A stretch of DNA of 64,000 nt from Dacryopinax spathularia (Eukaryota; Basidiomycota; Dacrymycetes; Dacrymycetales; Dacrymycetaceae): the NCBI GenBank assembly GCA_037974965.1, contig JBBPFI010000003.1:1488001-1552000 (forward strand), in the 5' to 3' direction. The position numbers and the translations under genes were made by a program. The notes beneath the pieces were generated by a model. The model saw nothing but the letters and a program-made list of their open reading frames with translations, searched no databases and was not told where the DNA came from. This document shows positions 2,461-37,059 of the stretch, piece after piece. The stretch's first letter is position 1. Each line of letters opens with the position of its first letter.

Positions 2461-2862
2461 CCCTAATGCAGGGTACAACCGTCTACCTCCCAACGCCCTT
2501 TCCGTTTGGATGTGATATACTGAATGACAGGCATCGGCGGACTCGCAGATCGTTGATATCATATAATTGTCCGCCAAAACGATTCTTCTACTTTCTGAGG
2601 GTGCCGCCGAGCAACAGAGGATACAGCAGCAATCCACTGGCACCCAACCCCGAGATGAAGGTTTGCTGATGAATGAGACCGGCGACTTAGTGGACATGGC
2701 GAGTATTTGTAGGCTGTGGTGCAGCAAATATCCAGAGAATAATAGATATTTCGACGAGTGACAGATAATGGACGAAGTCGGAGTTGTATGCGCAGGCCGA
2801 AACGCACGGAACGATTCCAACCATCAGGTCGTGCCTGGCTAACTCGATCCAGGGCGATCCAT

Positions 2863-3830
2863 GTTGATACTGTATGTGCAGGCTGAGTCGCACAGTGAGG
2901 GTCGAACGAGTGCGTGTTGCCTTGCTACTCAAGAACCAGGCGTAACCCGGAGCCGTACGTGCGATTCGAGATGCGGCTTCTACCTCTTGCGCACTTGTAT
3001 TGTCTTGTAAGACCAAGAGAGGCGATATTTGGGGCTGCGAGTGGAAAAGGAGACCGATTAGCGGACGTGGCTAACCCCGCTGTCAGAAGACAGGTTGCCT
3101 CTGTATGTGCAGGCTGAGTTGCAGGGTACACCTTCGCGCAATCATCTCCGTTGGCTGGTCCAGTTGTATCGCCGGCCGAAGGACAAGTGGTATGGTCTGT
3201 ATGTGCAGGCTGAGTTGCGGGGTACGCGTATCGCGCACCTATCTTCATTGGTTGGTCAAGATCTGCGTTCTCCTCGTCGATCGGGGACGTATTCTGCTCG
3301 ACGTCGATATCCACCGAGTAGGGTATGAACTGAAGTTCATGCGGTATGGTCTGGATGTGCAGGCTGAGATGTATGCGTAGGCTGAGATGTATGTGTAGGC
3401 TGAGATGTATGTGCAGGCTGAGTCGCAGGGTACGCGTATCGCGCACTTATCTTCATTGGTAGGTCAAGATCGCAGACCGAAGTTCAAGCGGTATGGTCTG
3501 TATGTGCAGGCTGAGTCGCGGGTACGCGTTCCGCGCACTCGTCTTCATTGGTTGGTCCGGATTGCAGGCCGAGGTTGGCGCGGGATGTGCAGGTCGACAC
3601 GCCCCTCTGTGATCAGGTTGCACATAGTCTTGTCTAGCGAGTGGGAGATTGAGGGCGAGACTTGGTACAGCAGGTGCAGAATCAGACTGAAGTGTCGTCC
3701 TGGCTAACTCCGCTCTCGGCAAGCGAGTTTCCGCTGGATGTGCAGGCTGCGGATTGGGGGGATTCGTCTACCCTTCTTGTCTTGAATGTGAGATAGCAGC
3801 AGAGCTGTATGTGCAGGCTGAGAGGCAAGT
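2863..3830 (+). repeat. Repeat A cluster with 150-bp tandem units
   Basis: About nine copies of CTGTATGTGCAGGCTGAG or close variants. Between about 3190 and 3640 they sit in a larger tandem unit: GGTATGGTCTG recurs at about 3190, 3341 and 3490, a spacing of 150 bp, each followed by the core and then a GGTACGCG-type tail. The minus strand reads QPAHT or LSLHIQ motifs. Minus-strand ORFs are open here but share little apart from the repeat, so a relic of the 7.4-8.7 kb gene type is as likely as a functional gene. Confidence 0.7.
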
Positions 3831-4144
3831 TCGTTCACTCTCTGACGCCTGAGCCGATGCATGAGGTTTGTGCCGATCCGGCCGGTAAGGGTATGGCCTG
3901 CATAGCGTGCTGACGCCGAGGAAGAGAAAGCAAAGGGCTGGAGCGGAATGCGCATGCTGCGCCTCTAGAGGAGGCGTTCGTATCAACCCACTTCTATGGC
4001 GAGAGCAGGCGTAGACGAATGGAGCGGGTGGACCGATTCAAGGCTAGACTGAAGCAGAGCGAGGCAGAGCGAAAGCGGAATTGGTTCTCGAATTGAAGTG
4101 GCGAAAGGGCTGAGCCAGCATTGCTGAGTGGCGGTCCTGGGCTG

Positions 4145-4169
4145 AACGCTGCCTGTGAATCCGCCACAG
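4145..4169 (+). repeat. Repeat B copy
   Basis: A 25-bp element containing GCCTGTGAATCCGCCACAG. It is one of six copies in the window, at about 4145, 5436, 8162, 8399, 13983 and 14840. The surrounding 3.8-4.5 kb holds no gene I can support. Confidence 0.7.
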
Positions 4170-4530
4170 AGACCCGTTCAACGTGAACTACACACCTTCG
4201 ATTCATCTACAGCCACGAGCACACCGCGCTCGCTCATGTCGTCTCCATGCTCCTCCATACTTGCCAGAGGAGTTCAGACACTCCTGGATGCAAGAGCGAT
4301 TGAAGGCAAGGAGGCATTAAGGGCGTGTCGAATACTTGAATATATGCAAATAGGCGGCTTGCAGTGGGCGAAGTAGAGCGATCGATTGCAAGAGACACAG
4401 TTGTAAGAGGAGTCAAGGATGTAAGTCGAGATTGCCGCGGGTCAGTGAGGTATAGAGGGCGGCCGAGGTGACGCGGATGCCAGGTTGTAGAATAGAGTGG
4501 TCTATAGAAAGGATGGGGATGTCGCAGCGA

Positions 4531-4735
4531 GGTGAATGTAGAAGGGGACAGCACGTAGAAAGGAATAGGTTGCGGAAGGGAATAGGTTGTAGGAGGGGAA
4601 CGGGATGTAGAAGGGAAGCGAGATGCAGAAGGGGAAAGGGATTTAGAAGGGGAATGGGATGTAGAAGGGGAGTGGGATGTCGAAGGGGAATGGGATGTAG
4701 AAGGGGAATGGGATGTAGAAGGGGAATGGGATCAG
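4531..4735 (+). repeat. Repeat C array (18-bp minisatellite)
   Basis: About ten tandem copies of GGGATGTAGAAGGGGAAT and variants, degenerate at the left and nearly perfect at the right. An ORF at 4468-4956 reads through as CRRGMG units and ends in a stretch like part of the 9.1-12.0 kb gene (QEGRR). The reading may be passive. Confidence 0.8.
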
Positions 4736-4739
4736 GGAC

Positions 4740-4960
4740 GAGAGTGGAATGTACTACGAAGTGGAAGCGGCCAAGTACAGCGCGCGCGCAAGAGCGGCAT
4801 ATACAAGAAGGGCGTCGCATAGCATGCCCTGAATACGACAAGGCGGCAAACAATACTTACAAGTCCCTCGGTGAGCCGGACGAAGCAGAACCTAGCGGTG
4901 CTAGATGGAAGCCAGACGTGAAAGCGAAAGAGGTAAGTCAAAGGAGAGCAGGATGAAACG
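4740..4960. pseudogene. Chimeric relic related to the 9.1-12.0 kb gene
   Basis: At about 4795-4830 the plus strand resembles 9480-9512, sharing CAAGAAGGGCGTCGCA and its flanks (exon 1 of the large Cys-rich gene). At about 4930-4950 the opposite strand matches CTCTCCTTTGACTTACCTC in that gene's second intron (about 10303-10321). Two modules of one gene thus lie close together here in opposite orientations, which suggests shuffled debris. Confidence 0.5.
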
Positions 4961-5117
4961 ATAAACAGTCTCATCGAATGATGGGGCAGGCGACCTCCTT
5001 TGTGGAGCATGAGCTTCATAGATTGCCGTCTCCTGATCCCTCCACAAGCCAAACGACCCTCTGGCCCCTAGCCTGAGGACGATCGCCCTCTGTGGCACTC
5101 AGTTGGAGGAGGCCACG

Positions 5118-5400
5118 ATCCCGCGTCTCAGCCTGCACATACAGCATACAGCTACCATGAGCCTGAATGTTGAACCTGATTGCGCCGGAGGCCTGATCGA
5201 TATCCTTGGGGAAGTCAGGAACCACGATCCTGCATCTCGGCCTGCACATACAGCTCCCATGAGTCTGCATGTCGAGCCTGATTGAGAGACCACGATCAGG
5301 CATCTCAGCCTGCACATACAGCTCCCATGAGCCTGCATGTCGTCTGATTGAGAGACCACGATCAGGCGTCTCAGCCTGCACATACAGCTCCAGCGAGTAC
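5118..5400 (-). repeat. Repeat A cluster, inverted orientation
   Basis: Four copies of the reverse complement of repeat A (CTCAGCCTGCACATACAG) separated by 50-90 bp. Between them the plus strand can read SLNVEPDCAG and LIDILGEV, matching SLHVEPDCAG and LIDIFGEV in the 7.4-8.7 kb gene. This block is therefore a degenerate, inverted paralogue of part of that gene. Confidence 0.65.
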
Positions 5401-5435
5401 CTGCGAGATCTGTCAGACATGATGTGCTGAGAAGG

Positions 5436-5460
5436 ACAGCCGCCTGGAAATCCGCCACAG
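5436..5460 (+). repeat. Repeat B copy (diverged)
   Basis: Contains CCGCCTGGAAATCCGCCACAG. It lies just downstream (on the minus strand) of the relic of the membrane-protein gene, matching the intron position of repeat B in the 13.4-15.0 kb gene. Confidence 0.6.
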
Positions 5461-5594
5461 AGGACTTCAACACCTGGTAAAGGACGCACATCTGTTTCCC
5501 GGCTTGCTCAACGCGTGGACCCTTCGACTCAACGCAATCCCCACCCTTCGTCCATCCATCATCCTTCGCCAACCAAGCTTCCACAAATGCTGGT

Positions 5595-5850
5595 ATTCGT
5601 CCGACAAGCTGGGGATTGCGTATTCGGCCATATGAAGCTGTTGCTGGATCTTCAGCCCATCAGGGAGGAGAGTCGTGCTGGGTATAAGGTAGGCTGCGCA
5701 GGATTCAGGAGATCCTCCATTAACTGCTTCGCGCGTCGACGGTACGGCCGAACCAGCATACGAGGTAGCGGCTCAAGGACTCGGGGGAAGCGACGGACTG
5801 GCTGGAGGCTACCAGGGGGTCAGAATCGACGAGCGGGCCTGCTGATGGGA
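5595..5850 (-). pseudogene. Relic of the 13.4-15.0 kb membrane-protein gene
   Basis: The minus strand reads RMLVRPYRRRAKQLMEDLL, matching RMLVRPYRLRARKLMEDLL of the intact gene. Nucleotide similarity continues on both sides (GAGGAGATCCTCCATTAAC-type sequence and CGACGGACTGGCTGG). The frame is then lost, with a stop shortly downstream, and I find no counterpart of the C-terminal membrane segment below 5.4 kb. A partial gene copy no longer coding the full protein. Confidence 0.6.
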
Positions 5851-5916
5851 GCTGGACAGCGCTTTATTGTCGCAACTGAGAGAGGGTCTTGAGATCAGGT
5901 ATGAGCTATAACGCGA

Positions 5917-5968
5917 GTGGTGCTTACCTGCGCAAGGGAATTCGGTCCTCGCCTATATCATACAGCAG
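5917..5968 (+). pseudogene. Exon-intron fragment copied from the left-edge Cys-rich gene
   Basis: About 49 bp resemble the exon 2 end plus second intron of the gene at 1-1940, read on the other strand: both contain GGTCCTCGCCTATATCA preceded by GTGGTGCTTAC. The match crosses an exon-intron boundary, so the copy was made from genomic DNA rather than spliced RNA. Confidence 0.55.
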
Positions 5969-6072
5969 ACAAGGCTCACACTCATCAAGCTGAAATCCTC
6001 GCCCAAGTGCAATGCTGTGTATTGAGTACGTTGGTATCGCTTGAAAATTCGCTGCAAGTCCGAAGCACTCAC

Positions 6073-6477
6073 AGGCATGGTAGAGACGGCAGTCCTGCGT
6101 CTCAGCCTATACGTCCAGCACATAGGCAACGCTCTTGCGTCCGCGCGATTTTCGAGCTTGGTGGGTTCGAATCTTTCCTTCGTCTTCGCCAATGTTTCTA
6201 TTGCTGAAGACCGGAATTCGAAAGGAGTCGCTGGTGAAATAAAGCGTTGTCAGTTCCAGGGGAGTTCATCTGACCATGATTCACCCATACCTGGGCCAGC
6301 CTCCCTCCTGTCACGGGTGGACGAATGTACCGGTCGTCTAGACTCTCTCCCGGCGTCCGTGATCTGACAAATTGGTACGTGAGAGCAGGGATTGCGTAGC
6401 AGCAGAAGGCAGATGCTGATAACAAGACCACGTTGACCGTGCTGATTCCCAACAATAGGGTCTGCTGACCACGCCAC
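6073..6477 (-). CDS. Possible small two-exon gene, incomplete model
   Basis: A weak model: exon 6291..6477 starting MAWSADPIVG with a hydrophobic stretch (LVISICLLLL), a convincing 60-nt intron 6231..6290 (GTATGG donor, CTGAC branch, CACCAG acceptor), and exon 6073..6230 that includes a diverged repeat A copy read as RLRRRT. A GTGAGT donor follows but no clear next exon is seen. It lies just upstream of the membrane-gene relic on the same strand and may be a decayed paralogue of it. No recognised domain. Confidence 0.3.
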
Positions 6478-6699
6478 TATGCAGTGAGAACTTCCACTGT
6501 ATTCTTATTACCGCTTGGCAACTCAAATGTGTATATCAAAACGTACTCACCTCTCGCTTACCTTTCGGTCGTTGTTCTACTCGTAACACACGTGTTTTGA
6601 ACAGCAGTTGCCCGTTTAGACGCTAATCCACCTTAGGGGCGAGATCGGGGCCCAGATAGGATGGCAAACAAAACCAGCGGCCCTCGTCCCGACGAGTGC

Positions 6700-6893
6700 T
6701 CGGATCGAATGGCGCCCTAATCTGGTGGCGAACCAATCTCGTGGTGCTGCGGCACGCTGGTCCTCGTGTTCGGTGGTTCCCAAATCTAACCGCTCTCGAA
6801 TAGGGTGGCGCTCAAATCCAACGGCTCTCAAATCCAATGGCTCTCATTTCCAACGGCTCCCGCTTCCAACGGCTCCCAAATATCGTGGCGCCA
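6700..6893 (-). repeat. Repeat D array, inverted relative to 2.2 kb
   Basis: Tandem degenerate units such as GGCTCTCAAATCCAAC, the reverse complement of the word at 2213-2330. Nothing gene-like is seen from 6478 to 7385, apart from a degenerate tandem duplication of about 60 bp (7057-7118 and 7133-7193, both with CGCTGATA). Confidence 0.55.
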
Positions 6894-7385
6894 CGTTTCC
6901 GTTTGCCAGGAGACATGCCTTGAGGTCAACAAGGCGCCCGCAAAGGGCTGAGAGAGATCATGCTGATCGGACGAACGCTTCTCAGCCAGACAACTGCACA
7001 GAGCATAGGGCAAGCGCTGTACACATGTCAACGTCACATATCGAACTAGTTGCGGTGTACGCTGATAGACATTGTTGTTTGGGTGACGGCGTTGTACGGT
7101 GCCGTCAAAAGTGCACATCTCGCACTATTGGGCGTCCGCTGATAAACATGGCTGTGTCAGTGACGACGTTTACTGTGTCATCGCAAGCGCACTCGATGGA
7201 GCATGGAAAACCAGGACAACGTTGTTAATCACCGTGTTTAGGAACAGGATCATAGGCCCTACAGGCCAAGCGGACACAGGGAAAGGAGGTCATGAAACTT
7301 CGACTATCAGAACATACACTCGAGATACAGAAGGCATCGCAGGAAGAGAGAGAACAAGAAGAGACTAGCGCAGTCAACACCTGAT

Positions 7386-8678
7386 TCACACACTCACTCG
7401 CACGGTCTGGTAACCACCAGACACGCTGGTCCACCAGGAGCAGACGCGAGCGAGCGCGGAACCCAACCCATTCTGCTCGCGCCATTCGCGTTCACGCCTG
7501 CGATCTTCGTCGCGCCTCGCTCTGTACGCACGCGCAGCCGCAACGTTCGTGTAAACGTCAGGTCCATACCCCAATCCCTCGCTTTCATTAGCTTCCACCT
7601 CACCAGGGCCTTTAGCTTCGACCAGTTGAGTAACCGGTGGAAGGCCATGGCCTTCCGCCAACAGGCCGTCCAAGGCGCTCGTAGCCGCTGCTCCCGGTTC
7701 GAGAATGAACTTCGTGTACCAGGAGGGGTTGTAGGCCGGAGGGGTAGGGTTGCCAAATATATCCACCAAATCGATGGCTTCATCGGCTATGACAGCCCGG
7801 CGCCACGCTGCGAGGACTCGCAGTCGCTCTTCAATGATAGCAGCTTCGACGGGTGAGCGAGGCTGAACGCTGCGCAGGTACGCTGCGTAGGCGTCCGCTC
7901 GCTCTAGGGTGGTAGCGAGAGCAGGATCGACGGCATACATGTCATCGACGGTGCGGATGGACGCAGGGCTCGACCGTCCTCCGAGCATCGCGGACGCTGT
8001 ATGTGCAGGCTGAGACGCAGGATCGTGGTCCCTGACCTCCCCAAAAATATCGATCAGGTCTCCGGCGCAATCAGGTTCAACATGCAGGCTCATGGTAGCT
8101 GTATGTGCAGGCTGAGACGCAGGATCGCGGTATCCATCGACCCCGGAGAGATCGATAAAGGCTGTGGCGGATTTACAGGCGGCGTTGTGACCACTTGGAG
8201 CTGTATGTGCAGGCTGAGACGCAGGATCGTTGCGACCACTTGGAGCTGTATGTGCAGGCTGAGACGCAGGATCGTTGCAACCACTTGGAGCTGTATGTGC
8301 AGGCTGAGACGCAGGATCGTTGCGACCACTTGGAGCTGTATGTGCAGGCTGAGACGCAGGATCGTCGCGACCATCGACCCCGGAGAGGTCGATAAAGGCT
8401 GTGGCGGATTTACAGGCGGCGTTGCGACCACTTGGAGCTGTATGTGCAGGCTGAGACGCAGGATCGTGCCCCCCTCCAACCGAGAAGAGATCGATTAAGG
8501 GCGCGGCCGTATCAGCGTTCGTTGACATGCCAGGTGAGGGCATGCTACTGATAGAGTCTAAAGTACACGTTAGCAACCCTAACCTAGGATGAAAGCAGGA
8601 TGCCCTACGGCCTGGGGTCATGTTGAAAAGCGGCGCTTCCGGAGCGTTCAGTTTATTGCGTCCCTTCTTCGTAGACAT
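7386..8678 (-). CDS. Hypothetical protein with tandem 15-residue repeats
   Basis: One continuous 430-residue frame from ATG 8678. The N-terminal ~70 residues are unremarkable. Residues ~70-220 carry repeats of the form DPASQPAHTAPSGRN, five nearly exact, interrupted twice by AACKSATAFIDLSGVDG (repeat B in coding form) and once by SLHVEPDCAGDLIDIFGEV. The LIDLF/FIDLSG/LIDIFG/LVDIFG pattern suggests a deeper repeat with an acidic-hydrophobic motif. The C-terminal ~200 residues are non-repetitive, with an Arg-rich charged segment (RARRDEDRRREREWREQ). No signal peptide or membrane segment is evident. A GTGAGT near the stop could be a donor, so the last residues are uncertain. It is divergent from the 9.1 kb gene, sharing about 410 bp of promoter. 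Family not recognised. Confidence 0.6.
   Translation of the reverse strand: MSTKKGRNKLNAPEAPLFNMTPGRRASCFHPRLGLLTCTLDSISSMPSPGMSTNADTAAPLIDLFSVGGGHDPASQPAHTAPSGRNAACKSATAFIDLSGVDGRDDPASQPAHTAPSGRNDPASQPAHTAPSGCNDPASQPAHTAPSGRNDPASQPAHTAPSGHNAACKSATAFIDLSGVDGYRDPASQPAHTATMSLHVEPDCAGDLIDIFGEVRDHDPASQPAHTASAMLGGRSSPASIRTVDDMYAVDPALATTLERADAYAAYLRSVQPRSPVEAAIIEERLRVLAAWRRAVIADEAIDLVDIFGNPTPPAYNPSWYTKFILEPGAAATSALDGLLAEGHGLPPVTQLVEAKGPGEVEANESEGLGYGPDVYTNVAAARAYRARRDEDRRREREWREQNGLGSALARVCSWWTSVSGGYQTVRVSV
7995..8465 (+). repeat. Repeat A, coding copies, with two repeat B copies
   Basis: Seven repeat A cores. Those from about 8200 to 8360 form nearly exact 45-bp tandem units, each a 15-residue unit of the minus-strand gene. 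Repeat B lies at 8162-8186 and 8399-8423. The high identity of the 45-bp units points to recent expansion or slippage. Confidence 0.85.
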
Positions 8679-9087
8679 TCGATCAGTCTGGATAGGTCTG
8701 GGAGGTAAAATAATGAGCTGCGTCTCGAAGAAGTCGTGTTGCGGCTTACTGTCTGGTGGATGTTAAGAAAATGTTTACACTGACGTGGTAGTGATGATGG
8801 TGGTGGTTCTAGTGAGAATAGATAGGGGGGCTGAGTGGGGATGACAGGTGGCACTTTTGTATCCGCCCAAGCTGTGCTGCACAGAGTTCGTCAGAAGTTT
8901 TATCTCGTCCACGTGATCAATATAAGGCGCGTCCCTAGCTGACGTGTTCGCTCGTCCTCCTTACTTACAAGCTTACCACCTTCAAGAACATTGAAGCTGC
9001 CTAGCTAGCCGTAGTCAACTCATTATCGTTTCAGTATTCTTCTCGCTGGCCCCCCTTTACCCCGGCTCCGCTCAATCCGAAGCTCCA
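8679..9087. promoter_or_regulatory. Shared promoter region of two divergent accessory genes
   Basis: A 409-bp gap between the minus-strand repeat gene and the plus-strand Cys-rich gene. TATAAGG at 8921-8927 lies 161 bp before the plus-strand ATG and may be its TATA element. No other site is recognised. Confidence 0.4.
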
Positions 9088-11983
9088 ATGGCACCCTGGG
9101 ATTCAAAACTATATCCACCGAACTGCTTGCGGACGCCCGAGCTTTCTGAAGACGAGGCGATGCCCGCGCTAATTGCCCTTCGCCAAATCCTAAGCCACTC
9201 AAACCCAACTGAGCCTGAATCAGGAGATTGGGTTTCTGAAAGCGAGTTACCCGATTCGAACCTTCCTGACGCACATGATCGACTATATGCGCGTCCATCC
9301 CGCACACCTCCGCCAACTGAAACAACGCCCGACCATAAGAGACGGCGACTGGATCGCACTGAGCAAGCAAGATCTGAGCTAATCCAAGCTGAAGAGACCA
9401 GGTGCATCCTAGAGCATGGTAGGAAGGAAGAAGAGAGACGCAGAAACGAAGCAGCGGCCGAAGCTGAGGCCGAGCGCACGCGGCATGAACAAGAAGGGCG
9501 TCGCAAAGCATACTTCGGCTTCGCGAAAGCCTGCTCGGGATCTCGAACCCCAACCCCTCCCTCTACTCAGTCTACTCCCAATCACATACGCTGGCAACGT
9601 GAAACCGAAGAGCCGAGTAAGGTGTGGAGTGAGGACATGATAGCCATGCCTAGGGACATTCCGTGGCAGGCCTGGGCCTCGGGGGAAGATCGCCCCTTTC
9701 TGCCCAACACTGATGCAGAGCGCCAGGAGGAACTGATAGTCTACCGACATATTGAGGTTGTACATTATCTCCTGGCGAACGCCCTTGAAGCTACCGGTGA
9801 GCTCTCTGAAGAGGAAACCAACAAGCTGGCGGCCTGGTGGGAGATGGCTGCAGACTGGGTGGTAAGGATCTTGATCACTGGGATCGTTATCGCCCTGATA
9901 TTCCCGTAGGAATCAAGTGATGACTGGGACCGAGGGAGCTCACGTATGCCGAATCGTTATCTCGCTCATCTCGAAGAAGCCTTGTACGAGCTCGCCGAGT
10001 CATACGATCTACCAAGGGACGAATGGCCTCCTCTTCGCCCCAATAATCGTCGCCTGAGACGTATTGACACGCCTAGGGAGAACTTTCTTAGGAAAGAAAT
10101 AGCATTGATACGCTCAGTTTGCGAGCGAAACTTTCCTGGTGTGCTGGAGAGATGCACGAGCCCGCAAGACTACATCGATGCGATTGCAAGTCTTCGTGTT
10201 TTCGTACTGCCATGGTATGGGGATTACTCCCAGATATCTCGAGAACGAGTCGAAGAGCTCTTCCTATATCGCGCTAGCTGTGTAGTATGCAAGGCGACTC
10301 TCCTACTCTCCTTTGACTTACCTCCTTCGCACAGGGGCTTGTTCTAGCTGCCCGCTCCCCTGGCGTGCTCCGCGAGCACGGTGGCAAGCACCCGCTAACC
10401 GAATCAGCCGGTATTCTTACTGATGAAGTCCTTTACCTTGCTTCATGGCATATTCATTTGGGGTTTCCTGACCCCTTCCCGGAGAAACAGACCTTCGGTC
10501 CTGATATTAACTGGGAAGACATGTACGAGCGAGCTCGACAGTGCCTACCGCTCGCTGCTTTCAATCACGACTATTACTCGTCCCTCTTCATTGAAGGAAT
10601 GTTAAGTGCTATCAACCAAAATAAGCCGCGCCCTCCGCTAAAAAAGAACGAAGAAAGGGTGACAGAATGGTTCGCAAACGTCTCGTTGGCTCTGGTAGGT
10701 CCTTTCAATCAAAATGGCCGCAACAACCGATGACCGGAGACTGCAGCTTACTCTGGAGTATCATCATGAGAATAACTGCCCTTTCACCGTGGAACAAGCG
10801 ACCAAAATTGTAGAAATCCTGAACGTCGTGCTGGAATGGCTGTTTCGCTACGACAAGTGGCAGTACCCCTTTACTCCGAGCAAACTTCCAAGAGCAATCG
10901 CCAAGCGCCTTAATGTCAAACTGCCCAACGGCCGAGCACTGCAAAGACCGGCTCCTCTTCTCACCCGTGCCCATCTCCTAAGCTCCGCTAGTCGTCCTAT
11001 GCAAGAGGCAGAGTGGGATTATCGGATCGGTCAGCACACTGTGTATCGCCGCCGCCAACTAGACAAGACCGTTCTCATAGAAGACCACGCAGTCTTGGTA
11101 CCCGATGCGATCGATGGAGGTCAAGGCAACGAACCCAAGCGCTTAAGACCTTCGAAAGCTCAGAAATTATCCCCTTTCCCCAAGGCCCTATTACGACAGC
11201 CAGAGTACTGGGCGATCGCGACATACACACGAGACCAGTGGCCGAGCCCAGAGGATATCAAGGAGAACGGTACTGTTAAGATCACTGGGTATCCGGCCGG
11301 CAACATCTTCGTAAGTATTCCGTTCCCCTTCTACAACCCGTTCCCCTTCTACAACCCATTCCCCTACTACGCACAATCCCCTTCTACATCCCATTCCCCT
11401 GCTACGCACAACCCCCTTCTACAGCCATCTGCCCTTCAATATCAGTTCCACTTCTCTCCGAGCGACAGACGCGTACCTCGAACTTGTTCTCGCTCCGCAT
11501 TCTAACCAAAGACAGATTCACGACGAAAGAGAAGCATGCCACGGCTGTCGTATATGGAAAGGCAGTCGAGTTGGACCGAATCGCTGGTGTCGCAGATGGG
11601 AGAGGCAGTGTTGCGTGAGATGCCGCCGACATAAAGGCATCTGTACCTGGTGCAATGGTGTGTACGGCAATAGTAAGAACTTACCTTGTTGCTAGCATAT
11701 TGAGTGCTGACTGACCGACCCAGTTTCGATCAAATACTTCGACGAAGAAGGACCGCTGTGCCGTGGGGACATTGATGACTTGGACCAGCTCATCCGTGAG
11801 CATTTCTTTGAAGGAGGGGACGATTTCCCGGATGGTCGGAATCCAGAGGTGTGGAGCAATCCGAACTACGAGGGCTTGATCAACGCATTGGGCAACAAGC
11901 AGCTTACGAAGAGCACATACTTCAAGAATAACGTCGCGCTTGTCCCTCTTACTGACGCTTTCTTGAATGTGAAGGCCGAGTAG
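9088..11983 (+). CDS. Large Cys-rich hypothetical protein, six exons
   Basis: Model join(9088..9861, 9910..10284, 10335..10694, 10747..11310, 11516..11672, 11724..11983), 829 residues, frame-consistent at every junction. Introns are 48, 50, 52, 205 and 51 nt. Residues ~90-150 are strongly charged and probably coiled (EEERRRNEAAAEAEAERTR). The middle ~500 residues are helical-looking without a recognised domain. Exon 5 carries a compact cysteine cluster (ACHGC, WCRRW, QCCVRCRRH, ICTWC) that is probably zinc-binding, followed by ISIKYFDEEGPLC. The 205-nt intron is four times longer than the others and holds a repeat C array, ending in CTAAC and AAAGACAG. The Cys cluster followed by a short acidic-aromatic segment resembles the gene at 1-1940, so the two may be distant paralogues. 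Function unknown; possibly DNA-binding. Confidence 0.7.
11318..11427 (-). repeat. Repeat C inside an intron
   Basis: About six degenerate copies of the repeat C word (reverse complement, CCCCTTCTACAACCCATT-like) within intron 11311-11515. The copies add multiples of 18 nt, so an unspliced message would stay open to a stop at 11503. Confidence 0.75.
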
Positions 11984-12114
11984 ACAGGAAGAGAGAGGCA
12001 ACGACTAGTGGAGTTAGCATGATTGACACCGTAATTGAGGTTTTGGAACCACCTACGCCCGAGCTAGCGCCATTGTGCTGCTATGGAAGGATTGACAGAC
12101 AACCGCAGGACTGA

Positions 12115-13200
12115 TTGAAGCTGTGGAGCTGTATGTGCAGGCTGAGACGCAGCCTGCACTTCGAAGACGACTTGGCGGGGGAGGACAGCGACCGGCAGCG
12201 CAGATGGAGCTGTATGTGCAAGCTGAGATGCAGCCTGCATGGGGGGAGACGAGCCAGGAAGTGAGTGGGGGAAGGGGCCAGGTCATAAGCCAGACCAGCT
12301 GCGGAAGGAGCTGTATATGCAGGCTGAGATGCAGCCTGTACTGAGTAGACGACTTGACGGGGGAGGACAGCGTCCGGCAGCGCAGATGGAGCTGCATGTG
12401 CAGGCTGAAACGCAGCCTGTACGGGGGAGACGATTTGACGGGGAGAACAACTGCCGGCAGTCCAGATGGAGTTGTATGTGCAGGCCGAGACGCAGCCTAT
12501 ATGGGAGACGAGCCGGGGAGTGAGAGGGGGCAAGGGGGGAGGAGATAAGCCAGACCGGCAGCGCAGATGGAGTGGTTTGTGCAGGCAGAGACGCAGCCTG
12601 TACGGGGGGGGACGAGCCGGGTGTGAGAGGGGAGAGGGGGGAAAGGTAAGAGAGCGACCAGACCAGCGGCGAGACAGGAGTTATATGTGCAGGCTAAGGC
12701 GCGGGATAGTTCCTGCCTCAGCCAGCAGCAGACTAGGAGCTGTATGTGCAGGCTGAGGTGCAGGATCGTTGCCTGCTTCAGCCTGTACAGGGGAGACAGG
12801 CCGGGTGTGAGGGGGGGAAGGGGGAGTAGTAGGAGCTGTATGTACAGGCTGAGGCGCAGCGTCGTTGGCCGCTTCTGCCTGTCCGTAGAGGACCTTGGGG
12901 GCGACCATTGGGGTGAGAGGGGACTCGACCAGACCACGGGCAGGTCAGAGCTGGTTGTACAGGCTGAGACGCAGGATCATGTCTACCCCAGCCTGTACAG
13001 GGTGAACGAGCGGGGTTGGAGAATCTGAGCCAGCGACTAGGTTGGTCCTGTATGTGCAGGCCGAGACGCAGGAACGTACTCCCTGCATCTGCGAGTATCG
13101 GTAGACGGTAAGGCTGGAGCCAAGGGGAGGGGAATCGAAGAGACGATAGGACGAATAGGGCGTGTATGTGCAAGCTGAGACGCAGGATTGTCGTGTCCAG
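12115..13200 (+). repeat. Large degenerate repeat A array
   Basis: About twelve copies of the repeat A core spaced 60-110 bp apart, with GC-rich spacers (GGGGGAGGACAGC, GAGACGAGCCGGG) that also recur. Several frames on both strands stay open through it because the core has no stop in five of six frames. I see no splice-consistent gene; 11984-12114 and 13201-13416 show no gene either. Confidence 0.75.
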
Positions 13201-13416
13201 CAACCCTGTGAATGAGATGGATGATATCGTAGGTAGAATAGTAATCTCGTTTTCACTTTGGACTAGTCATAGCATTGAATTGATGTTAATACCGATGACA
13301 GGAACGCAAACGTACGAGGCTACGGTATAGCGGTGTGAGGGCGGTATAGGTATCTGTGCGTTGGGGGAGGGGCATTCGAGAGAAATACACTAAGAATGAA
13401 ATCGTATCTACCCATT

Positions 13417-14971
13417 CTACAACTCGTCCTTCTCCTTGAGGAAACCGGGAAGAGCTTTCAGCGCACCGATGACGAGCTTGATGGTATCAAAGTGAAAGGC
13501 GTAGTTTAGTACCGCCCATGTAGCTGCGAGTAATCAGTATGAGGAGGCGAGGTGTGACGAAAGTAGACTTACTAGCCATGATCACGATGATATGATAGTT
13601 CTTGATGAGTTTGCCGAGCGCCCAGAAGATAGCCCAGAAAAGCGCGATGAACGGGAATAAGAGGACTCCCAGAAGGTTTTCACCGAAGAGCCGTAATTCG
13701 TAGTGATGCCGGAACGGTTCGAGGACCATTTGTACCAAGAACGGCGCAATTCTTGCAGTCCACAGACGAAGGTCGCCGATGTCGTCCCAGCTAGCCTTCG
13801 CGAGAGCGCCCCACAGTGCCCCAATGGATTGTACGACCCATATTCCGGCGTCCCCTCCGATAGCCCGTTGTTCGACAATGGCTGCCAGGCGTTCGGGTGC
13901 CGTCAAAGCAAAGAAAGGGCGACGGGCGGCATGTCGAATGGGTACCTGCAAAGGAGTTAGCCAGGAATATACAATCGGGACGAACGCCGCCTGTGAATCC
14001 GCCACAGACAGCGCGCCCAACTGATAGGCGTACCTGGACTCCTTCCCTATCCTTAGGCAAGGTACCACTACCACCTTCCTCCTGCTCGCCGGCGAGCACA
14101 CCCCTTTCGCGAACGCCCTGCGACTCTGACCCACGCCGACCCCTCTCAACCCTCTCATCCGCCCCATCCGGCTGTTCAGCCTTGATCGTTGGTCCTCCAG
14201 CTTGCGCATTCAGCCCGTTGGCGAGGAGAGTCGTGGTGGGAATAAGGTAGGTGGCCCAGGACTCGAGGAGATCCTCCATTAACTTCCTCGCACGCAGACG
14301 GTACGGGCGAACGAGCATACGAGGAGGCGGCCGTGGCTCGCGGGCGGCAGCGACTGGCTGGGTGGACGCTCCAAGCGGGCCGAGTTCGATGGGTGGACCA
14401 GCGAAGTGCTGATCATTGTGCCTCAGCGGCCACCATCCACGTCCGGGCGTGGGGTGAACCGTTGAGTCATTGCCGCTCGAAGCCAGGGCCGGTGCAGAGG
14501 GAGGCGAAGTCGTTGTTGAGGTCGTTGTAGGATGTGTATGTGCAGGCGGACGCGGCGGGTTATCTTCACGTTGACATCTATAGAGAGGGAGGAGATGAGC
14601 GAAGCGATCCATGTCGTAAGGTGGTGGACGTAGAAGGCAAGGCGTGCTGCAAAGGACAAGGGAAATGAAGGCGTCGGTACACTTCGGATTTCCTGTGCAC
14701 ACCCCTATCCCTATTCGCGCGGATGCCTCGGGGGTCCTCTATATAAATAATTAGTCAATCTCATTGTCAGTTGTGGCGAAGTATAGTACTCACCTGTAGT
14801 CGTTGATAGTCTAGGTGGTATTGGAAGTCGAACGGGCCTCTGTGGTGGATTCACAGGCGGCGTTCGATGCTGGGTTGGTTCGCCTATCGTCGCAGGCGTC
14901 ATTTCGAGCGAGAAAAAGCATGGCCATAGAAACAATAGACGGCGAAAGGTATTGTAGAACGCGAGATTCAT
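13417..14971 (-). CDS. Hypothetical membrane protein, four exons
   Basis: Model complement(13417..13523, 13573..13945, 14034..14710, 14794..14971), 444 residues, all junctions frame-consistent. The start (MNLAFYNTFRRLLFLW) gives a hydrophobic N-terminus that may be a signal anchor. The middle is Pro/Thr-rich with RMLVRPYRLRARKLMEDLL and an acidic low-complexity part. Exon 3 holds a well-behaved region (LTAPERLAAIVEQRAIGG) and a strong membrane segment (LLGVLLFPFIALFWAIFWAL). The last exon ends FLKEKDEL. Repeat B is translated in exon 1 as TPPVNPPQ and also lies within the 88-nt intron 13946-14033. A repeat A copy lies in exon 2 (RPPAHTHP). The exon 1-2 acceptor is the least certain: an alternative AG 28 nt earlier shifts the frame. 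Partial relic copy at 5.6-5.85 kb. Family not recognised. Confidence 0.6.
13983..14007 (+). repeat. Repeat B copy in an intron
   Basis: GCCTGTGAATCCGCCACAG word inside intron 13946-14033 of the membrane-protein gene, opposite to the coding copy in exon 1 relative to transcription. Confidence 0.8.
14840..14864 (-). repeat. Repeat B copy in coding exon
   Basis: On the minus strand it reads in frame as TPPVNPPQ in exon 1 of the membrane-protein gene. Confidence 0.75.
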
Positions 14972-15034: not shown

Positions 15035-15130
15035 CCTTAAGCCCTAACTACCCTATTAGCTAACGTCTCGGATATATCCGGCTACTCGGTATATGTCCGA
15101 GCCTCGGACATGTCCAGACCCTTGGACAAA

Positions 15131-15700
15131 GAAGTTTTTAGTCGGATGCCATCGACAAGACGCGTTTATTCACCGGATGCCATCGACTTCGCATATTTAG
15201 TCAGATGCCATCCGGCTATGGGCGTCTTAGGGAACTAAGTCAAATAAGGCATGGATATGATCAATTTGATCATATTGCAACATGTAACGCGCCCTCCATC
15301 CCCTGTGATACAATATAAAAGTCCGAAGTTCTCCTCCATACTGTGGACTTACCGTAAACATAAAGTGTGTCTCCCAGATTTTCAAAGCACCATAAAATAG
15401 AAGTAAGTCATTAATATTGCAAGAATAGTAGCGTTTTTTCGGCAAGTAAAAAATTAGTTTATGTTGACTTGCTTGGCTTGCAGTTACAACTTAACAAACC
15501 AGGAAGGAGCAGATAGCAAGAATTATCTAGATATATTGTCCGGAATCCGTTGATTACCTGTTGCAATGGATCATATTCATGCCTTATTTAACTTAGTACC
15601 CTGAGACGCCCATAGCCGGATGGCATCTGACTAAATATGCGAAGTTGATGGCATCCGGTGAATAAACGCGTCTTGTCGATGGCATCCGACTAAAAACTTC
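15131..15700. mobile_element. Non-autonomous MULE-type miniature transposon
   Basis: A 570-bp element with inverted termini of about 130 bp (15131-15262 and 15569-15700). The ends begin GAAGTTTTTAGTCGGATGCC and differ at about seven positions. CTTGGACAAA is repeated exactly on both sides (15121-15130 and 15701-15710). Each terminus holds three copies of a GGATGCCATC-like word. The AT-rich core has no credible ORF. Long termini with a 9-11 bp duplication are typical of Mutator-like elements; the family assignment is inference. It sits 240 bp upstream of the coronin ATG. Confidence 0.85.
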
Positions 15701-15940
15701 CTTGGACAAATCTTCACGATCCCTGGAAGCCCTCCTGCACAAGGGTTCGCAGCACCGCGCGGAAAGTCCGGGCTGTGCGGCCCAATCCCGGCGTCGTCTC
15801 CGCTCCTCGTCTCGTCTCCATTCCGCTCGTCTCGCACAACCCACCCAACAACCACCAACCATCTTGCTTCTCTCTTTCTTCCCTTCCTCTTTCTCTGTCC
15901 CCTCTGCGAGCGCGAAATTGTAAAAGGCAAAAAGTGAACC

Positions 15941-33137: not shown

Positions 33138-34131
33138 TCATACGGTCAGACCCTCCAACAGGCGTCCCACTAAGATCTCCGGTTCCGGCGCCTCCTTCAC
33201 CATCTCATCTGTATCTGCGGGAAGATCCCTCCACCGCGAAAGGATCATAACCTCCCCATTCTCCTTCCTCATCGGGACCAGCATATATGCGCTCTCGACC
33301 ACCCTTGGTCACTGTCATCAATACCCATCATGATGGAGGATCGACAAAGACTCACGATTGCAGCTGCCTCAGCTCATCCTCGAACTCCCCCGGGTAGGGG
33401 ACTTGGTCGATATCGGAGATGTCTTCCCAGATATTGAGCACGATCCGTAAGCCGAGCTTATACCTCCCCAACTCGTTCTCCTCCTCCTCCGTCTTCTTCC
33501 CGTTCTTCTCCGCTGCGTGGCGCTTGGCTTCCCGTGCTTTCCTTGCAGTTTTGTTGGATTCCTGATCCTTCTCGGAGTATTCGACAAGGTCGCGGAACTG
33601 TCTGGGCGTCGCGATTCGGTAGAAGTCGTCCGCTGCATACAAGCGATCCACTTGAGCCATGATCTTGTGCGTCGTGTACACTAGACAGTCTTCCCAAGGC
33701 AACGGCGGGTCAACCGCAACTGCCTCCCGACCATTCTCTCCGCCTTTGAAGCCCTCCCCAAGCGCAACATAAGCCGCCTTATGCCACTCCACCTCATCTG
33801 ACGCCTCCGTTCGACTTAAACAGCTCGCAACCGCCAGCCGGGCCGCAACAGGAAAAAGCGAGATCATCTCCAGCTCATAGCCCGCCACGTTCTGGTGCAC
33901 CAGACCATGTACGACTCCCAAGTATTTCTTAGGTTTGAACTGGGCGATGGCTCCTCGGACGGAGGGGTGGTCGTATGTCTCCGCAATGGGTGCGAGGGAG
34001 AGGGAGAAAGCTATGATGGAGCCTTGGAGCGGGGCGGGGTCGGGCTCTGGGAGAGGGAGGGGCGATGTCTTGGGTGCGGTGGGAGGTCCATATTTGGCGA
34101 GGTCCGGTGTGTGGGATGCTACCGGAGACAT
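33138..34131 (-). CDS. Hypothetical protein, first of two tandem paralogues
   Basis: Model complement(33138..33303, 33356..34131), 313 residues, one 52-nt intron in the same place and phase as in the next gene. Conserved with the neighbour: IAFSLSLAPIAETYDHPSVR, KPKKYLGVV, LPWEDCLVYTTH, VLNIWEDISDIDQVPYPGEF. The last exon reads AYMLVPMRKENGEVMILSRW. A Lys/Glu-rich insert (RKAREAKRHAAEKNGKKTEE) is less conserved. No signal peptide or membrane segment, so probably cytosolic or nuclear. Family not recognised. Confidence 0.78.
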
Positions 34132-34767
34132 CTTTTGTTGACGAGGAGGGGTTGAGACTCTGGTCGAGAGATGCGCGGGGGCTCTTTATACTATCTCATA
34201 GGTAGCCAGGAACAACAGTAGGCTCGCGCCAGTAGGAACCCCGTCATCGCCAGTGACTTCGTCCTGTAGGATGCTTGACAGTTACTTTTGTTCCGGCTTG
34301 TGCGTGGGCATGCTTTGTCCCTGCCTTACTGACTCTGCATCCTGCCAGGCCGGTATAAGCATGCTCATAGACAAGGGCCAGGATATCAAAGATCGCCTCC
34401 AGACGGCCACTTTCGTAGGCGTAGCCATCACGCTCGCTTCATACTTTTAGTGATGAGCGACGACATCGAGACACAACAGGCCGTTGCACTGGCCATGGAA
34501 TGTGACCGTCCCGATGTGTATGACAACGAACGTCGTCTGGAATGCGTCCGGCTTCTTTATCCCCGCGTCGAGCATTCGACGGTTATTCCATACTCATAGC
34601 GACCTCAGCTTCACGAGGTCCCGTCTCCCAAGACGGAGCCACTACGCAAAGCTTGTTTGATGTTTCCATACACGGACAATACGATGACATCGTAGCTGGT
34701 ATTATCTACGGATTTGAGCGCAGACAGTGCCTAGCAATTAACGCGGAATTTGCTCTGAATATTCGCG
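34132..34767. other. Spacer between the tandem paralogues
   Basis: Promoter of the 33.1 kb gene and 3' region of the 34.8 kb gene. A 48-codon plus-strand ORF (34453-34599, MSDDIETQQAVALAMECDRP) has normal-looking composition but no clear splice partners, so it is noted and not called. Confidence 0.35.
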
Positions 34768-35947
34768 TCACCTCCAACACCATATGGTTCGGCGAACGAG
34801 CCTGAGTATGGTGCGAGCCAAAGTCTCGAACGGGAGAACGAGCGTGCAGAGGAATCGAAGGATTCCGCGACGTCCGGAAGGCGACACGGTGCCGTTGGGC
34901 TGGTCTGGCGGTCCGTCGACGGAGGCGTCGTGCGAGGTCTTCGAGGGAGCAGGAACATCAGCAGTTGGCTCTGGGCTCGACTCTTCCTCGACAGGAGCCG
35001 GCTGATCTTCAAAAGCCCGCCGATCCCGAGGTTCCATTAGCATAAGAATCTCGCCATCTTGATCCAGATATGGACGCCATACAAGGATCTTTCGTACGCA
35101 TCTGCGCAACATCAGCATCGCCGGGTAACGAGAACTCGACTGCTTACCTTTGTAATTCTTCGACTTCCGCCTCGAAGTCGCCAGGATAAGGGACGGCGGT
35201 AACATCAGAGACGTCCTCCCAAAGATCAAGGATGACCCGAAGCCGAACTTCCATTTCTTTCGGGAAGTTGCCGCCCGTAAGCTCTTCTTCGTATGCGGGC
35301 GTGTTGATGGTGATCTCGTCGTTTGACAAAGCGGATTCGTTTTTGTTTGCCTCGACAAACTTCGCCCGTCTCTTGGTGTCAGTAGCTTCACGATCTTCCT
35401 CAACGTATTCCTCTAGCCGTCTGAACTCTTCTTCGGTCGAAATTCGATGACGGGTTTCGGATTGATACAATCGACCTAGTTCTGTGCGAATCCCATGGGT
35501 GGTATAGACGATGCAATCGCTCCAGGGGAGAGTCGGTTCAATGTCCATTGGTTTACGCCCGTTGTCGGGAATTGCCTCGCTTTTTCCGAGCTTGACATAG
35601 CATGAACGATGCCAGTCGTGCTCCTCGCCACCACCGAGTCGCTCCATATAGTCCTTACCGCCGAGTCGTCTGGCGATGGGGAATAGATGAAGCCCATCGT
35701 TCTCCTGAACGGTGTCCCACGACCCTCCAACTATCGCGAGATACTTCTTCGGCTTCGCCGCCATTAAAGCGGCCTTGACGGTTGGATCGCCATATAGCGG
35801 GGCCATCTTGTCCAGCGCTAGGCTGAAGGCAACTAATATGCCTTCATCGGGGAAATAATCTTCTTCCTCACAAGAGACGATGCTCTCGTTATCCGAGGTG
35901 CAAAGCTCTTCTTCTCGACCGAATTCTTGCATGATGGAGATAGCCAA
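34768..35947 (-). CDS. Hypothetical protein, second of two tandem paralogues
   Basis: Model complement(34768..35101, 35148..35947), 377 residues, one 46-nt intron. It shares with its neighbour VAFSLALDKMAPLYGDPTV, KPKKYLAIVGG, LPWSDCIVYTTH and VILDLWEDVSDVTAVPYPGD. It differs by an acidic N-terminal extension (SCEEEDYFPDEG) and a C-terminal tail of ~75 residues ending in a hydrophobic, Arg-rich segment (LRFLCTLVLPFETLARTIL) that could be a membrane anchor. The tail is absent from the paralogue. Divergence is high enough for an old duplication. Confidence 0.75.
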
Positions 35948-36079
35948 AGGGGTGAAAGTTGATACAAGCTGATCGTGCCATCCTTGACCGATTATTGTAT
36001 ATGAGGGTGTCGAGTATGGAGTATGGCGTTGAGCAGGCCTTATGTTGATCTTAGCGGCTGTGCCCTAGCGACGATCCTG
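35948..36079. promoter_or_regulatory. Upstream region of the second paralogue
   Basis: 132 bp between the minus-strand ATG and the second MULE-type element. If its promoter extends beyond that, the element interrupts or supplies it. Confidence 0.3.
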
Positions 36080-36662
36080 GAGAAAATTGCTCTATTGACC
36101 CCTCTGCGGAGGCGTCATTGCTACAATGACCCCGGAGGCGAATTTTGCTCATCTAACCCCTAGGGTCCCGCACCTAAGTATGTTAATGTGTATTCCTCCG
36201 CTGTTATCAGCCAAAATAGTAGTATTTCTAGTCTAGAACTTCAAATAAGAGGCAAACAAAATAGAAAAAAAAATGGTTCTGATGGCTCTATGCGTCAAGC
36301 TTCCTAGAGATTATAGGACACATAAGGCTGTTAGAAGCCCGCAAGTAAGTAAGCTTGGTGTCAATAAAAAGTACCAATAAACCCCTTAATTACACCTAGT
36401 GTTGCCATTTTTTAAAGGTCACTCCCCTATCAAAGGTTACTCTACTCCCCTCTCTAGACTCATTGCTTTGATTTAAATGGTACTAATTTGATGAAAGTTG
36501 GGAAGAGAATATAACAATTTATTTTCTCCATGCTAATTGAGGTGGTGATTATGACTTAGCAGTGATTATGTCCGGACCCTAGGGGTCAGAAGAGCAAAAT
36601 CCGCCTCCGGGGTTATTGTAGCAATAACGCCTCCGTAGAGGGGTCAATAGAGCAATTTCCTC
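36080..36662. mobile_element. Second MULE-type miniature transposon
   Basis: A 583-bp element with termini of about 91 bp (36080-36170 and 36572-36662) that differ at about eight positions. Both contain AAATTGCTCTATTGACCCCT. GACGATCCTG flanks it exactly on both sides (36070-36079 and 36663-36672). The core is AT-rich with no ORF. Terminal sequence differs from the element at 15.1 kb, so it is a separate family, but size, structure and duplication length agree. Confidence 0.85.
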
Positions 36663-37059
36663 GACGATCCTGACGCAATGCTTCTCTGCCTCCGGCCATG
36701 TAGCGCCGCAAGACCAAGACACGATAACTACTCTTGAGTGTTTCCACCATCACTGGTCCTTTCAGGGATGTTATTGCTCTCGGCGCCCATGGCAATCCTT
36801 TGTTCTGGCTTCATATGCTCGTGGATTTTGTTTCTCGCCATTCAACTCAGGTGCAATTGCTGGCTGCTGCTGGCCTACCGCTCCTCCAGGTTCTTGGTGG
36901 GCCGGCCATATTGGCGTTGACAAGTTCTAGTGGTTCTGAGACGGTGGCTTACTGGCCTATAATTCGACCGAATAGATATAAGCCGCTGAGATGGAGAACT
37001 TTCTGTGGCCTCAACTATATCCCTTCTGACCGTTTCGACTACCCACATTCCTTCATCTC

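Follow-up and report, generated by a model that had tools for sequence, protein, structure and literature searches.

In a 64,000-nucleotide stretch of the genome of the basidiomycete Dacryopinax spathularia (GenBank assembly GCA_037974965.1, contig JBBPFI010000003.1, positions 1,488,001 to 1,552,000; hereafter the window), a short DNA sequence with the 18-bp core CTGTATGTGCAGGCTGAG, referred to here as word A, recurs in predicted protein-coding genes and in non-genic DNA side by side. We consider it fairly probable that word A is the common core of a minisatellite-like family of arrays in a locally shuffled region (~1-15 kb of the window), and that template switching, tandem duplication, and exchange at the word itself account for its spread. 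The repeat is ordinary in kind, and only the juxtaposition of coding and non-genic copies is unusual; nothing in the data clearly points to a function for word A itself.

The core matches the window 33 times at up to three mismatches, against 0.02 matches expected from shuffled sequence, which rules out a chance origin. All 33 lie at 2870-14551, and 17 copies are exact. With four mismatches allowed, the count in 1-15 kb rises to 37 and 15-64 kb still has no copy (chance expectation there, 0.5 four-mismatch matches); at five mismatches the word dissolves into noise, with six matches on each side and 3.8 expected per 49 kb. A four-mismatch match at 11963, at the end of a predicted gene (gene 2) and possibly due to chance, was excluded from the tests, leaving a working set of 36 copies. 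The initial annotation of this DNA, made from the letters alone, had reported more than 30 copies at 2.8-14.6 kb, none past 15 kb, and a core free of stops in five of six frames; these counts were reproduced, the sole stop being a TGA in one plus frame. Its description of an 18-bp word present in both orientations needs qualifying on two points. Minus copies exist, but they are four against 29 plus copies at up to three mismatches, and all of them form one block related by inversion to a coding array. The 18-bp core is real, but the conserved stretch is longer, typically GGAG-core-AYGCAG in the blocks called B5, B8, and B12 below, and the extension is followed by GATCG in B8 and in part of the other blocks.

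The copies are laid out as four arrays (B3, B5, B8, and B12; Table 1) and singles, and the arrays of 18, 45, 68, and 80 bp that Tandem Repeats Finder reports and that carry word A fall within the ~10-100 bp range of minisatellite units. B3 lies outside predicted genes, with units partly of 93-96 bp and an 18-bp tandem run at 3355-3422. The twelve copies of B12 are likewise outside predicted genes, downstream of gene 2, at spacings of 59-115 bp. B5, the inverted block, is composite: copies 5127 and 5236 lie within 5113-5254, an inverted copy of 7996-8130 in the coding array B8 (88% over 142 columns), while copies 5304 and 5370 lie within an adjoining 68-bp tandem array at 5221-5391; the spacer of that tandem array likewise aligns to the coding array in inverted orientation (5286-5350 against 8134-8068, 85%). 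Upstream of copies 2870, 3101, and 3734 of B3, at ~30 bp, stands a GGCTAAC-containing piece (2835, 3067, and 3700, the first seen by eye; left-flank scores 8-12), and a GGCTAAC-containing piece also occurs at the end of an intron of a predicted membrane-protein gene.

Seven copies lie in the predicted gene at 7386-8678 and one in the membrane-protein gene, all on one strand and in one frame (...PAHT...). The initial annotation had ascribed coding, intronic, and non-genic use to the word, had seen its frame change from place to place, and had suggested that it is selected or copied as DNA and not for a peptide. Coding use was borne out, as ASQPAHTAP in the former gene and RPPAHTHP in the latter, with splice sites chosen by eye. 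Intronic use was not: none of the word A copies falls in any of the five introns that we placed by eye, in an annotation that did not cover every gene. Two other repeated words do sit in introns, an 18-bp purine repeat in the gene-2 intron at 11311-11515 and a sequence that we call word D in the membrane-gene intron at 13946-14033. No change of frame is seen between the two predicted genes. The DNA-level inference drew support from the changes in non-genic copies and from the identity of the coding copies described next, with its selection-or-copying part leaning to copying, and the argument from frame and strand that had been offered for it is weaker than first presented.

Were word A a peptide repeat, all blocks would be pieces or relics of genes encoding HDPASQPAHTAP and kept for that peptide. 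The shared frame in both predicted genes fits this account, as do the B8 spacings, which are multiples of 3 in 6/6 cases, and a gene fragment present in B5 (open reading frame (ORF) 5037-5282). A coding peptide repeat would, however, favour synonymous changes in all copies, whereas reading the 28 copies outside the two genes in the gene's frame yields 4 synonymous against 34 non-synonymous core changes, below the 26% synonymous expected, so that peptide selection in this frame is unsupported. Spacings are multiples of 3 in 6/10 cases in B3 (three of them the 18-bp run), 1/3 in B5, and 5/11 in B12, and the flanks of B3 and B12 are on average no closer to those of B8 than random sequence. We regard a peptide repeat as very unlikely. 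Because the non-genic copies carry no constraint from the gene's peptide, word A appears to be kept as DNA. Within B8 itself, a 29-bp stretch that takes in third codon positions is the same in all seven copies, though the spacers of 7997, 8099, and 8438 differ. When six frames were tried, on copies that are not independent, a nominal synonymous excess appeared in the core in the plus frame ELYVQAE (18/38, p = 0.002), gone with the extension included (21/130) and reversed in B3 (5/66, p = 0.004), and in the minus frame TILRLSLHIQL (15/38, p = 0.017), weaker with the extension (47/130, p = 0.065).

The flanks bear on whether the word was selected or copied. Between the four blocks, identity averages 0.90-0.99 in the core but 0.55-0.63 in the flanks, and randomly drawn pairs of 60 bp give 0.56 +/- 0.04 (26 of the 36 copies; flanks taken as the left 60 bp and, on the right, beyond offset 30). 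The blocks thus have the common core with unrelated spacers in several arrays that characterizes minisatellites, although B5 and B8 share some spacer; the single exon copy at 14534 is less close to the blocks in its core (0.79-0.83). Flank partners switch at the word among the 36 copies, as seen within one sequence of one strain: copy 5127 has its best left match at 8099 and its best right match at 8438, 8099 matches 5127 on the left and 8336 on the right, 8201 matches 8438 and 8291, and 12210 matches 12392 and 12573. Where flanks have recognisable homology (40 comparisons among 33 of the 36 copies, without 3351, 3369, and 3387), mean divergence is 0.086 in the core and 0.124 in the flank, and 15 comparisons within B12 give hand sums of 55/270 for the core and 106/621 for the flank. 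In a test of same-type units (four of B3 and six of B12), the variable columns of the B12 units number 3/18 in the core against 14/62 in the spacer (p = 0.75), and 5/18 against 30/80 (p = 0.59). Taken together, the switching of flanks, the similar divergence of core and flank, and the scrambled state of the region favour copying over selection.

Several observations weigh against copying as the whole account. When the 12 units of B12 are aligned over the whole block, the 18 best-kept columns are those of the core (0.86 against an alignment-window median of 0.44), and units 12681-13162 retain it while their spacers barely align. In B3 the core varies less than the right flank (1/18 against 15/46 columns, p = 0.027) and scores 1.00 against an alignment-window median of 0.79, with hand sums of 3/126 against 56/302. 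Choosing homologous flanks or same-type units biases flank divergence downward, flank switching inside a tandem array would also follow if unit variants simply underwent unequal exchange, and the term local holds within the 64-kb window only. The well-kept cores of B12 and B3 speak for a DNA-level functional site (host-protein binding, or a recombination or chromatin signal) under purifying selection in coding and non-coding DNA, as do the exact copies spread over four arrays with mostly unrelated spacers and the 29 bp that remain identical in all seven coding copies at synonymous positions too. Such a site sits poorly with the like divergence of core and flank in B12 where flanks are homologous, with the dispersal of other words and gene pieces of the region, with spacing that is irregular except in B8, and with the lack of any copy at up to four mismatches elsewhere in the 64 kb. 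In view of the best-kept core in B12 and B3 and of the bias in the flank tests, we put selection as unlikely and copying with exchange as no more than fairly probable.

Apart from word A, the region contains many short copies of its own sequence. After masking of the word-A, purine-repeat, and other known arrays (on the right also one GMC gene copy, repeats resembling miniature inverted-repeat transposable elements (MITEs), and microsatellites), there are 14 short duplications in 1-15 kb, against 0, 1, and 0 in 15-30, 30-45, and 45-60 kb and 0 in the overlapping 49-64 kb. The 14 comprise three unmasked B3 spacer pieces, one local tandem, one palindrome, and nine dispersed duplications in both orientations; four of the nine are word D, and among the others are fragments of genes 1 and 2 and a membrane-protein gene relic (5439-5819), which aligns to its source with a score of 88.5 against at most 8.5 in 50 shuffles. 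The single duplication on the right pairs adjacent ORFs at 33352-34185 and 35144-36064, seemingly related genes. Local short copies of resident sequence in direct and inverted orientation are what template switching would leave. Word D has inverted ends (CTGTG/CACAG) and no copies in the other 49 kb; two of its copies lie in predicted coding sequence and one in a predicted intron, and the copy at 5439 is part of the gene relic.

From these observations, we propose a set of steps by which word A may have reached its present distribution:

(i) Short resident DNA, genic or not, would have been copied, directly or inverted, to new sites within the region; template switching while breaks were repaired or DNA was replicated is the likeliest route.

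(ii) Copies landing in tolerant places may then have been amplified in tandem.

(iii) Unequal exchange and slippage at word A could have joined the core to different spacers. The likeness of the word between blocks would then reflect a junction and a recently copied piece, rather than a demonstrated sequence-specific function.

(iv) In the 7.4-8.7 kb gene, the in-frame array, with 45- and 102-bp units, may be tolerated or used as a peptide repeat, and the membrane-gene copy would be another tolerated exonic copy.

The exchange step is supported by flank switching; the copying step is an inference, as are the sequence of events and the lack of selection.

Word A with its extension (~25-36 bp) might instead be a very small self-inserting mobile element that is tolerated in exons, in the manner of Rickettsia palindromic elements; yeast mitochondrial GC clusters are a comparable very small inserting element tolerated in exons. 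Coding and non-coding sites with mostly unrelated flanks would suit such an element, and so would the single copies at 2870, 3734, 3805, 6101, and 14534 and the dispersal of word D with its inverted ends. Most copies stand in tandem arrays, however, with a strong orientation bias and a minus block related by inversion to the coding array; one D copy is just part of the gene relic; and inspection of the flanks of 33 copies by eye, short of a systematic search, showed no terminal inverted repeat or target duplication. We find this origin improbable. The same low standing applies to a broader proposal, in which word A would be a self-spreading or actively maintained nuclear element of ~25-36 bp, copied into exons and intergenic DNA and acting as a preferred recombination junction that adds in-frame repeats, with word D and the purine repeat as sister words of like behaviour; it would then be a nuclear eukaryotic counterpart of Rickettsia palindromic elements.

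The word could also act through structure, by pairing with an inverted half-copy to form a hairpin in RNA or in single-stranded DNA. By eye, word A pairs with a downstream inverted half-copy in 9 of the 12 B12 units, and folding of 29 copies on both strands (z from mononucleotide shuffles) gave, on the plus strand, -5.2 for copy 12740 and values of -2.0 to -2.8 for four other copies, and on the minus strand -3.1 to -5.3 for five. Yet mean z over the 29 copies is -0.7 (plus) and -1.2 (minus), B8 has no such pairing, and B3 copies 3351 and 3498 (z -2.6 and -2.7) fold into other shapes. In the six short-loop B12 units, 5/60 pair cells are disrupted, none of the pairs shows a standard change in both partners, and no Rfam family matches at the gathering score. 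With neither compensatory changes nor a known family, a hairpin role seems highly improbable. More doubtful still is the idea that word A descends from introner-like elements or gives rise to them. It rests on splice-like signals (GTATGT, GCTGA, GCAG), which in CTGTATGTGCAGGCTGAGACGCAG follow a donor-, branch-, and acceptor-like order by eye, and on the intronic location of other words of the region. The five introns placed by eye hold no copy, the donor-to-acceptor distance is just ~22 nt, GT is missing in 5/33 copies (3351, 3734, 12392, 12681, and 12951), and the exonic copies are antisense.

Three further candidates were rejected. A prokaryotic source found no match to the exact 24-bp form of word A in the genome contigs searched. 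A viral source found two matches to the exact 18-mer in viral contigs, each a single copy (no other at up to three mismatches in 9.6 and 11.9 kb of those contigs) that we take as chance. Subterminal transposase sites can be repeated in KDZ or CACTA elements; the arrays here are not terminal to anything recognised, and Pfam found no transposase in 10 translations (eight from 0-15 kb, some partial).

As for the genes of the window, the main exon of the gene carrying B8 has no Pfam match, and none of the eight translations from 0-15 kb (some partial) matches Pfam above the cut-off, with one sub-threshold DUF702. The window codes for an Ssz1-type Hsp70, whose best solved-structure match is 7x3k, SSZ1, the next four being labelled putative heat shock protein. 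Its introns are short with CTAAC-type branch sites, by eye. Of two tandem GMC oxidoreductase-type genes, the Pfam and PDB searches covered the second (54272-56227), which has matches to GMC, glucose-oxidase-like, and aryl-alcohol oxidase structures. The Hsp70, the GMC gene pair, and the intron features indicate a fungal, probably basidiomycete, source. The MITE-like element at 15127-15704 has an apparent 10-bp target duplication, CTTGGACAAA, seen by eye and Mutator-like.

Table 1. Word A blocks, single copies, and other features of the window (positions from the first letter of the window).
Feature	Position	Strand	Details
Block B3	2784-3822	+	Word A at 2784 (degenerate, 4 mismatches), 2870, 3101, 3197, 3351, 3369, 3387, 3405, 3498, 3734, 3805
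Block B5	5127-5387	-	Word A at 5127, 5236, 5304, 5370
Single degenerate word A copy	6101-6118	-	4 mismatches; then GACGCAGGA
Block B8	7997-8455	+	Seven exact copies, spacing 45 or 102 bp; minus-strand translation DPASQPAHTA
Block B12	12129-13179	+	Word A at 12129, 12210, 12311, 12392, 12472, 12573 (degenerate), 12681, 12740, 12836, 12951, 13048, 13162
Single word A copy	14534-14551	+	3 mismatches; in exon 1 of predicted membrane-protein gene; minus-strand reading RPPAHTHP
Predicted gene carrying B8	7386-8678	-	413 aa; one 51-nt intron (8558-8608) placed by eye
Predicted membrane-protein gene	13417-14612	-	352 aa; introns 13946-14033 and 13524-13572 placed by eye; C-terminal KDEL
Decayed collinear relic of membrane-protein gene	5439-5819	+	Copy of 13986-14379; poor alignment in middle part
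Word D, CTGTGGCGGATTCACAGGCGGC	4148, 5439 (-); 8162, 8399 (+); 13986 (-); 14840 (+)	three per orientation	6 copies at up to 5 mismatches
18-bp purine repeat, GGGAATGGGATGTAGAAG	490-557, 4537-4732, 11317-11455		One array inverted, inside predicted 205-nt intron 11311-11515 of gene 2
16-bp tandem word, ACCGGATACGAGAGCC, and reverse complement	2201-2304 and 6772-6881		Two arrays 4.5 kb apart
MITE-like element	15127-15704		140-bp terminal inverted repeats, 95% identical; right edge of scrambled region
Second inverted-repeat pair, possibly another MITE	36073-36669		96 bp, 90.6%
Two tandem related GMC oxidoreductase-type genes	50676-52637 and 54272-56227	-	76% DNA identity over 1971 columns

The same short DNA, coding in genes and non-genic next door, illustrates how local copying may seed new protein repeats, and a word open in five of six frames can mislead ORF finding. 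Should word A turn out to be a favoured junction or a minute mobile element, one could test directly how in-frame protein repeats arise. The word A sequence strings had no match in the open-access literature searched, and searches by titles and the beginnings of abstracts returned no description of such a case.

Several known systems share features with word A. At yeast breaks, templated inverted duplications are mostly ~5-34 bp long (PMC11724301). Word A resembles templated insertions and the template switching of microhomology-mediated break-induced replication in its short local direct or inverted copies (PMC11724301, PMC8421209, PMC7954356). Templated insertions are single repair events, whereas the copies of word A are also amplified in tandem, by a mechanism that we can only infer. 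Rickettsia palindromic elements are tolerated in frame. Like them, word A is a short repeat with intergenic and intragenic copies (PMC2229807). Unlike them, it is non-palindromic, mostly tandem, and found in a fungus, and inspection by eye revealed no insertion signature. The motifs of megasatellites are far longer and tied to genes. The megasatellites of Candida glabrata are, like the arrays here, tandem repeats of a fungal genome (PMC4556013), from which word A differs in being short and both genic and non-genic. Fungal introner-like elements are likewise repeated short sequences in fungal genes, and the motif order of word A resembles splice signals (PMC4457414). Compared with introner-like elements, word A is far too short, its exonic copies are antisense, and none lies in a placed intron. 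Dispersed Jeffreys-type minisatellites consist of arrays with a common core, which we take to be unrelated in sequence to that of word A. Word A is unlike them in its clustering in one 12-kb region of the window and in having one coding array, and instability was not observed; it is like them in its short conserved core, its several arrays, and its differing flanks and unit lengths, and Jeffreys-type arrays change by unequal exchange.

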